From Candidatus Liptonbacteria bacterium RIFCSPLOWO2_01_FULL_53_13 (GTDB lineage Bacteria; Patescibacteriota; Minisyncoccia; UBA6257; 2-01-FULL-56-20), in NCBI GenBank assembly GCA_001818895.1, contig MHLB01000034.1, forward strand, positions 6,957 to 21,669: a DNA stretch of 14,713 nt, in the 5' to 3' direction. Below are positions 2,978 to 4,100 of the stretch, piece after piece. How positions within the stretch are numbered: the first letter of the stretch is position 1; every line of letters begins with the position of its first letter. The notes under the pieces were generated by a model that did not search any database, was not told the DNA's origin, and was given only the letters and a program-made list of their open reading frames with translations. Both the position numbers and the translations under genes were made by a program.

Positions 2978-4063
2978 TTATGCTGGTAGGATTCCGATCT
3001 TTGCAAAAAGTTCCTTAAAGCGTTTCTGATATGTATGGTCGCGCATGGTTCGCTCGTACCCTGCCTGCGCGATTTTCTCGCGCTCTTCATTGTGCGAAAG
3101 ATAATACCTTATTTTTTGGACTAAGTCATCAATGTCCCGATAAAATACCATCTCACGATCAGGCTCATAATAATCCCCAATCCCCTCTGAATATCCGGAG
3201 ATAGTGAACGCTCGGCATCCGGCGAGTTCAAACGGGCGGGCATGGGTGTGCGGAACCGCAAAATGCCACCATGCACGAAGATTATCCACAAAATGGATGT
3301 CGGGAACAAGATGATTAATGGACTTCCTAAGAAAGATGCGCGCAAGCACTGCGGGTTCCCATCTGCCTGGACGAACATTCAGATTGAGATTAATCCTACT
3401 GCGGGAAAATATATTAAGCATTTCCTCTTGTGATACTCTACCGTTCGGCCCGCCCGACTGAACAGCATCAGCCGTTCGGGCGGGCCAGCCGAATCCATAG
3501 GCTTGCACTGCGATTTGATTTTTGTGAAGTGCGTCAATAATTTCCCCTCGCCCTCGTTTATATTGCCCCACAAAACTTACATCTATATCTTTCATGCGCT
3601 CCCGCGGCTTATAAACGTCGGTGTTGCACGCCCACTGAGAAAGTGCCGCATTCGTGAAACCTGCGTGCCGGTACCATGTAAACGCTTGGGGAGAAGTGGT
3701 TACCGCCAAATCAAAATAAGGCGCCCATCGTCTTGAATAATTAAAGAATCGCCAATAGTCGTCCGCAAACCATGCAACGATTTTTGTTGTCCTGCGCGCG
3801 CGAATCGCCTTAAGGATTTTCGGGTCAATCTCGTCCGTATACATGAAAACAAACAACAAGTCGGGCTTCTCTTTCTCTACGGCCATTAAGAGCTTTTTAT
3901 TAAACGCTTCCTTCCCAATGCTTGGGATAACGTCGAATGGGCGCTCGATAACATCAATGCCTGCAAGGTGCGTAAGCGTGAGAAGGAAATTATTATACTC
4001 AAAACTCATCCCCTTTTGGGAATTATAGTTTTCGTGCTGGAGCCCCACATAGAGAATTTTCAT
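2978..4063 (-). CDS. CgeB-like glycosyltransferase carrying a 12-residue in-frame palindromic insertion
   Basis: A 361-residue protein of the CgeB/'spore maturation' glycosyltransferase type (GT-B fold, C-terminal Glyco_trans_1_2 domain). Seen: N-terminal MKILYVGLQHEN; IVAWFADDYWRFF (95-107); DVSFVGQYKRGRGEII (161-176); QEEMLNIFSRSRINLNLN (212-229); and the ending with RYYLSHNEEREKIAQAGYER, then DHTYQKR, all usual in this family. It probably transfers a sugar in the cytoplasm. Residues 195-206, inside what would otherwise read GFGWPNGRVSQEE, are encoded by a GC-rich inverted repeat that looks like an insertion. The ATG at 4063 matches the family's N-terminus but has no SD. A GTG at 4099, one base after the upstream TAA, would add 12 residues. 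It shares the C-terminal signature with the next gene upstream, so the two form a tandem pair. Confidence 0.87.
   Translation of the reverse strand: MKILYVGLQHENYNSQKGMSFEYNNFLLTLTHLAGIDVIERPFDVIPSIGKEAFNKKLLMAVEKEKPDLLFVFMYTDEIDPKILKAIRARRTTKIVAWFADDYWRFFNYSRRWAPYFDLAVTTSPQAFTWYRHAGFTNAALSQWACNTDVYKPRERMKDIDVSFVGQYKRGRGEIIDALHKNQIAVQAYGFGWPARTADAVQSGGPNGRVSQEEMLNIFSRSRINLNLNVRPGRWEPAVLARIFLRKSINHLVPDIHFVDNLRAWWHFAVPHTHARPFELAGCRAFTISGYSEGIGDYYEPDREMVFYRDIDDLVQKIRYYLSHNEEREKIAQAGYERTMRDHTYQKRFKELFAKIGILPA
3446..3486. repeat. GC-rich palindromic element inserted in frame inside the CgeB-like gene
   Basis: Two perfect 11-bp inverted arms, GGCCCGCCCGA at 3447-3457 and TCGGGCGGGCC at 3476-3486 (plus strand), flank an 18-base centre that itself holds CTGA (3458-3461) and TCAG (3469-3472). 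An 8-bp direct repeat, CCGTTCGG, occurs at 3441-3448 and 3472-3479. Codons 195-206 of the gene (3481-3446) can be removed cleanly to leave a reading frame GWP-NGRVSQEE that looks ordinary for the family. The 36-bp unit therefore behaves like a small palindromic insert with a short GGCC duplication that keeps the frame open. It has no protein of its own. Only this copy is in the window. Confidence 0.65.
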
Positions 4064-4100
4064 ATGAATGATCGGTGTCCCCGCTTTCTGTCTGCGCACA

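Follow-up and report, generated by a model that had tools for sequence, protein, structure and literature searches.

A short palindrome in frame in a Liptonbacteria glycosyltransferase gene, probably a copy of a non-autonomous element present in several bacterial phyla

How does a GC-rich inverted repeat come to lie inside the open reading frame of a conserved enzyme? The question is raised by a 14,713-nucleotide stretch of contig MHLB01000034.1 (the window) from Candidatus Liptonbacteria bacterium RIFCSPLOWO2_01_FULL_53_13, whose draft genome comprises 778 kb in 66 contigs and is 81% complete. A CgeB-like glycosyltransferase gene in the window, the product of which matches the Pfam family PF13524 (Glyco_trans_1_2, E 1.6e-30), contains a palindrome with GC-rich arms that are complementary at 11 of 11 positions and stand 18 nt apart; the minus-strand reading frame around it runs over 2978-4099, with a GTG at 4099 as another possible start. 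The original prediction for this locus had read the palindrome as an in-frame insertion, possibly of a small mobile element, and its coordinates and reading frame proved correct. The segment is probably a copy of a non-autonomous palindromic element that has spread within genomes and between distant phyla and is tolerated in genes.

The palindrome itself is pronounced. The coding-strand 70-mer containing it folds at -41.9 kcal/mol, against -24.5 +/- 2.8 kcal/mol for 200 shuffles (z -6.3), none of which equalled it, and this score together with the copies found elsewhere rules out a chance hairpin. A known RNA family is likewise ruled out for the palindrome by the absence of any Rfam match within the window at gathering scores. 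The core of the element, as delimited by the family alignment, is 36 bp long and scores 57.2 bits with the family covariance model, of which the window copy is itself one of the ten rows.

Comparison with homologues shows that these 36 bp were gained. The window protein was searched in 151 genomes (its own and those of relatives), with matches in 29 at E<=1e-20, and was aligned with the 24 homologues from related genomes whose loci were fetched. Exactly 12 residues (ARTADAVQSGGP or an equivalent shift) are missing from 23 of the 24 and 11 from the remaining one (L230), and the inserted peptide is carried by none. On these alignments the window palindrome is an insertion, and the earlier claim that removal of 36 bp restores an ordinary family sequence is borne out. 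The GGCC at the junction had been taken for a short duplication, a reading that did not hold: since the net gain at the site equals the core, which runs from CCC to GGG, no target duplication is needed, and GGCC arises because the CC and GG ends of the element meet flanking GG and CC. No solved homologue of the glycosyltransferase was found by sequence.

The segment is not alone in its genome, a case for which the original prediction had allowed. Of the two findings that this prediction had named as counter-evidence, a genome with no further copy and homologues with the same 12 residues, neither was made. BLASTn found a copy on another contig (C19; 92% over 37 bp, E 2e-9) and weaker matches besides, and the covariance model, built from ten copies of which six are from this genome, located eight distinct sites at E<=0.01, one of them in the window (at E<=1 there were 15 rows, several of which represent one site on both strands). 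At least three of the eight copies lie in frame within long reading frames, on the window's contig (C34), on C19 and on C40, the latter two in paralogous genes of a zinc-ribbon-like family. The C19 segment is absent from all aligned homologues of its gene, several of which have other segments, of varying length, at the same place. The flanks of seven of these copies are unlike one another, with none of the 21 pairs having a flank more than 60% alike. The covariance model was positive in at least eight of 38 family genomes (up to 150 candidates scored per genome) and BLASTn in seven of 61 relatives at E<=0.001, both counts including the source genome; a search for a plasmid copy gave no match at E<=0.01, which with one 66-bp query is a weak test.

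Several observations on the source genome and its relatives stand beside these copies. One of the own copies (L039 1354-1416, G000:C61) measures 63 bp; its loop holds additional inverted sequence, and the copy is flanked on either side by a perfect direct repeat of 12 bp. The own genome and one relative (L024, L043 and L047) also contain another type of GC-rich, palindrome-like sequence, around CCTGCCCGCCGAAGC...CGGCG. For the zinc-ribbon-like proteins, about 600 aa in length, four genomes of this bacterial family (G000, G004, G007 and G032; loci L235-L259) gave more than 20 matches apiece. Other low-complexity repeats (NNSPLTTDNGE, NNSQPTTNNGD and SSKFQVPNKFQV) lie in frame in loops that are also used by the palindrome, namely in the L002 and L037 frames and in a C-terminal loop of L282.

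Beyond the relatives, an exact pattern was used to scan contigs of the GTDB and found the element in at least 116 stretches, which form an uneven sample. The family consists of palindromes mostly of 28-48 bp, with arms CCCGCCCGACYGAA...TTCGGGCRGG, a stem that begins CCCGCCCG, and variable loops. The matches listed for the 116 stretches contain at least 124 copies: 49 in Bacteroidota, 12 in Ignavibacteriota, 42 in 16 named candidate phyla of the Patescibacteria, one each in Omnitrophota and Planctomycetota, and 19 without a phylum label. These copies are 29-51 bp long, within the 29-57 bp to which the pattern itself bounds them; those of 29 bp belong to Chitinophagaceae and Zeaxanthinibacter, the Patescibacteria have mostly 30-36 bp, and many Ignavibacteria 45-48 bp. 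Bearers of the 29-bp form include three isolates, Zeaxanthinibacter enoshimensis DSM 18435, Niastella soli and Agriterribacter humi. Thirty bearing genomes hold 1-15 copies each, and in a phylum-wide sample the strict pattern occurs in ten of 379 genomes, the source genome included. The reversed pattern, scanned as a control, gave zero matches in both sets, and the recurrence of such arms is therefore informative. The element is rare, patchy and low in copy number.

In Ignavibacteria (G073, and in part G071) the arms are constant and the loops, of about 15-18 nt, differ from copy to copy within a genome. In a set of 40 distinct copies of 36 bp, T-A occupies columns 11 and 22 in 31, C-G in seven and other combinations in two, and columns 15 and 26 hold C-G in 27, T-A in four and other combinations in nine. 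As these column pairs cross, a single simple hairpin cannot hold both, and the element appears to maintain two inner stems that compete. Of three viral stretches, two were inspected (L187 and L189): one copy lies inside a Mu-type transposase gene, the other where a capsid gene begins, close to a contig end. Since copies sit in viral contigs, phages are a possible carrier.

The copies that lie inside genes show a bias in length and frame. When a reading frame of 150 aa or more, with 20 aa to either side of the copy, is required, 21 of the 124 listed copies span genes: 15 of the 42 in named Patescibacteria phyla, three of the 49 in Bacteroidota, one of the 12 in Ignavibacteriota and two of the 19 unlabelled. 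Their length is divisible by three in 18 of 21 cases (the others are L133, L149 and L185), against 53 of 103 for the other listed copies (p 0.004). The 18 in-frame host genes, assigned by Pfam or solved homologues, are gyrB, mfd, truB, hsdM, typA, trigger factor, a DEAD helicase, pcrA/uvrD, pheT, holA, two ileS, an AcrB-type pump, femAB, dus, an O-antigen ligase, a Por-tail protein and one beta-propeller-like protein that matched only below the cut-offs. Where solved homologues were aligned, the gap is close to the insert in PcrA and Mfd (nine for ten residues in each) and equal to it in HsdM (12 for 12), and exceeds it in TypA (18 for 12) and in one isoleucyl-tRNA synthetase, IleRS (15 for 12, with smaller gaps besides); in PheT and the other IleRS (L173) it is split or falls short of the insert. 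The phylum-wide sample adds 22 copies outside the own genome, in 20 distinct contexts; four span genes, in murC, priA (with weak PriA matches), gltX and a T2SSE ATPase gene, where the copy is 47 bp long and not a multiple of three, and another lies eight residues from a gyrB start. Twelve of the 18 in-frame copies are read in the frame that gives PARTT..VQSGG, against 4.2 expected if any stop-free frame were equally used (p 0.0002). Stop codons alone fail to explain the bias, since three to six frames are open in each copy, and selection for a tolerated peptide is its likely cause.

Some of these host proteins have further unusual features. The isoleucyl-tRNA synthetases of two Taylorbacteria contain an inserted stretch that matches histidine phosphatases and phosphoglycerate mutases (about aa 506-683 in L173 and aa 499-661 in L165), a PheT-like protein of a Taylorbacterium (L154:699-3167) has an NlpC/P60 domain at about aa 385-504, between B3/4 and B5, and the Yanofskybacteria GyrB with the palindrome near its start (L087:2295-5750) has an intein splicing domain at about aa 482-902. 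The coordinates of the features in the window are collected in the table.

Features of the host gene and the palindrome in the window (positions of the whole stretch)
Feature	Position	Strand	Detail
CgeB-like / Glyco_trans_1_2 glycosyltransferase gene	2981..4063	-	361 codons from ATG at 4063; stop 2978-2980
36-bp palindromic element core	3449..3484	-	12 codons; coding strand CCCGCCCGAACGGCTGATGCTGTTCAGTCGGGCGGG; peptide PARTADAVQSGG
Left arm, perfect inverted repeat	3447..3457	+	11 bp
Right arm, perfect inverted repeat	3476..3486	+	11 bp

How, then, might such an element spread? In each of three groups, loops from one genome resemble each other more than loops from different genomes do (a level reached by 0 of 300 shuffles per group; 144 of 148 copies, 26 of 30 genomes), which fits copies spreading within genomes. 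The element would consist of two arms of about 14 bp back to back around a short, genome-specific loop, and new copies of it would arise elsewhere in the same genome, often as a unit bounded by the arms. Its passage between distant phyla may have had phages as a plausible carrier. Movement would most likely depend on an enzyme that acts in trans and recognises the arms; it could be, for instance, a recombinase or an HUH or DDE protein binding GNTVCCCGCCCGA. Insertions in genes would survive when their length is divisible by three and they are read in an open frame, preferably the one encoding the short polar loop PARTT..VQSGG, and the encoded peptide is probably a tolerated passenger. With multiple copies, in frame in unrelated genes and absent from homologues, the non-autonomous in-frame element foreseen by the original prediction gains support, and the range over several phyla goes further than had been guessed.

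A number of points weigh against this interpretation. The arm constancy of the GTDB copies is fixed by the scan pattern and is no independent evidence, and because copy numbers are low and presence is patchy, the mobility of the element at present is something that we infer. Alike flanks in at least one pair occur in nine of the 23 other genomes that hold more than one copy (three of three pairs in fen_1268, four of six in Zeaxanthinibacter, five of ten in a Taylorbacterium and five of 15 in RYN_297), so that larger units have been duplicated in those nine genomes, and such duplication partly feeds the test of loop likeness. The 36-bp gain in the window was judged on protein alignments rather than on a DNA-level empty site in a close relative. 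Some copies are not clean additions: the PheT gap is only five residues and lies next to other gaps, and three relatives of IleRS L173 have a loop of nearly equal length (a few residues longer at most), which by alignment indicates that the palindrome there replaced or overlaps an existing loop. In the p values, related copies count as independent. As to the enzyme, no match to a Y1 transposase was found in the own genome, of which 81% is represented, and a search for a larger transposon with the same ends in 139 loci, mostly pieces of 3-8 kb, yielded 16 lone arms among 298 and no inverted pair 0.15-4 kb apart.

The simplest alternative, that the segment is an ordinary loop of a glycosyltransferase subfamily whose DNA is palindromic by chance, could appeal to the small differences in length that homologues show at the site; with the segment carried by none of the 24 homologues and the same DNA recurring in unrelated genes, it is refuted for practical purposes. 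An untagged repetitive extragenic palindrome (REP), moved in trans by a single-strand transposase (Y1, HUH) of the REP-associated tyrosine transposase (RAYT) type, is a more serious contender, as it would account for the size, the GC-rich imperfect hairpin and a window site that needs no target duplication, and Y1_Tnp is matched in 25 of the 30 bearing genomes. Against it, the flanks of 90 de-duplicated copies carry neither a GTAG nor a CGTC tag, Y1 is matched neither in the own genome nor in five others of 30 (among them genomes with six and seven copies), and when the tables for the 30 bearing genomes were compared by eye no listed Y1 match lay within 1 kb of a copy, the nearest being 1.4 kb away (G079:C44). 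We regard this explanation as rather unlikely, and a Y1 transposase as the mover was rejected on the last two grounds. An intrinsic terminator was also tried and rejected, since neither end of the 90 copies shows a T or A run.

Direct repeats at the flanks bear on two further explanations. Repeats of at least 7 nt within 20 nt on both sides accompany 19 of 137 copies, where nearby windows would lead one to expect 4.1, and the ends of the 90 de-duplicated copies show a weak symmetric preference, GNTV|...|BANC; both would suit a minimal miniature inverted-repeat transposable element (MITE), that is, the two terminal inverted repeats of a larger DDE transposon that duplicates its target on insertion. 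The repeats, however, vary in length and distance, several lie, as judged by eye, in locally repetitive DNA, the gain in the window is just the 36-bp core, and no long element with these ends was seen in the 139 loci, which speaks against a larger transposon with the same ends; a minimal MITE seems to us unlikely. The same variability, the different small repeats that occupy the same loops in paralogues and IleRS, and the patchy presence in the phylum would all be compatible with hairpins pasted in at low-complexity flanks during break repair or uptake of foreign DNA, with no transposition at all. That is quite improbable in our view: the whole arm pattern recurs in distant genomes and the reversed pattern in none of those scanned for it, and the genome-specific loops fit a unit that is copied repeatedly and recognised through its arms.

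A spreading, non-autonomous palindromic element is thus the reading that we prefer. A fuller picture can be drawn only tentatively, and as a whole would sooner fail than hold: a selfish hairpin family, served by a non-RAYT enzyme and travelling between Patescibacteria, Bacteroidota, Ignavibacteriota and phages, that maintains two competing inner stems through paired changes, reads as a harmless polar loop in its favoured frame, lives in essential genes and supplies loops of 10-14 residues to protein evolution.

Why does a hairpin of this size matter? One untagged family enters genes in several phyla, including the Patescibacteria with their small genomes and few spare genes, and it affects central genes such as ileS, gyrB, mfd and pcrA/uvrD, among others. 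It offers a tracer of exchange between Patescibacteria and other phyla, and the copies within genes are natural loop-insertion mutants of well-studied enzymes. For annotators, 10-14 residue segments of the type PARTT..VQSGG are likely to be mobile DNA rather than protein features. No earlier description of this palindrome family was found in the literature searched, outside of which lay subscription journals and preprints. In the sections of earlier work drawn on here and below, Rickettsia is the best-known source of in-frame palindromes, intragenic REPs have been described from some further species (PMC3733652), and a review of 2024 calls protein change of the Rickettsia kind 'conceivable' in other prokaryotes (PMC10969869).

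Among known systems, the bacterial MITEs share with the element their terminal inverted repeats, non-autonomous nature and in-frame occurrence in genes, in-frame fusions being known for them (PMC2229807, PMC10969869). The element differs from MITEs as described there in being much shorter, not A+T-rich, and without TA ends; a regular target duplication is not apparent, none being needed at the window site and direct repeats flanking 19 of 137 copies, nor was a partner transposon found in the 139 loci, whole genomes lying outside that search. The PARCEL repeats are dyad-symmetric coding sequences that occur sporadically in distant taxa, and their horizontal spread has been proposed (PMC2996958); the element is likewise coding, dyad-symmetric and sporadic over distant taxa, but differs from that account in being a single short insert in conserved enzymes.

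The GTAG and CGTC REPs are short hairpins that are both intergenic and intragenic, some of them in genes for replication, repair and pseudouridine synthases (Di Nocera 2013, PMC3733652). In the parts of that work considered, REP superfamilies extend over several phyla, and CGTC REPs, which also occur in Bacteroidetes, are defined by an unpaired CGTC head, a short CCA tail and stems of 8-9 bp that begin with AT (PMC3733652). The element, too, is a short hairpin found between and within genes. Unlike GTAG REPs, it has no unpaired GTAG at its ends in the 90 de-duplicated copies, and the gene for their partner, Y1, was not found in the own genome; unlike CGTC REPs as so defined, it has neither the head nor the tail, and its stem begins CCCGCCCG rather than AT.

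In its behaviour the element resembles the Rickettsia palindromic elements (RPE), a resemblance on which the original prediction was right. RPE are palindromic, multi-copy, and lie in frame in unrelated conserved genes as well as between genes (PMC2229807, PMC10969869), and the element is palindromic, present at several places in a genome and in frame in unrelated conserved genes, mostly in one frame. The two are set apart by description: the same sources give RPE as 105-146 bp or about 150 bp long, against 36 bp in the window and mostly 28-48 bp in the family, and the element is untagged and occurs in Patescibacteria, Bacteroidota, Ignavibacteriota and viral contigs. RPE-4 and RPE-6 correspond, in the section concerned, to short CGTC-tagged REPs (PMC3733652), whereas the flanks of the element have no CGTC tag. 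As far as these sections define the groups, the element lacks the tags of REPs (a test that covers RPE-4 and RPE-6) and is of another size than the long RPE, yet its behaviour is RPE-like.
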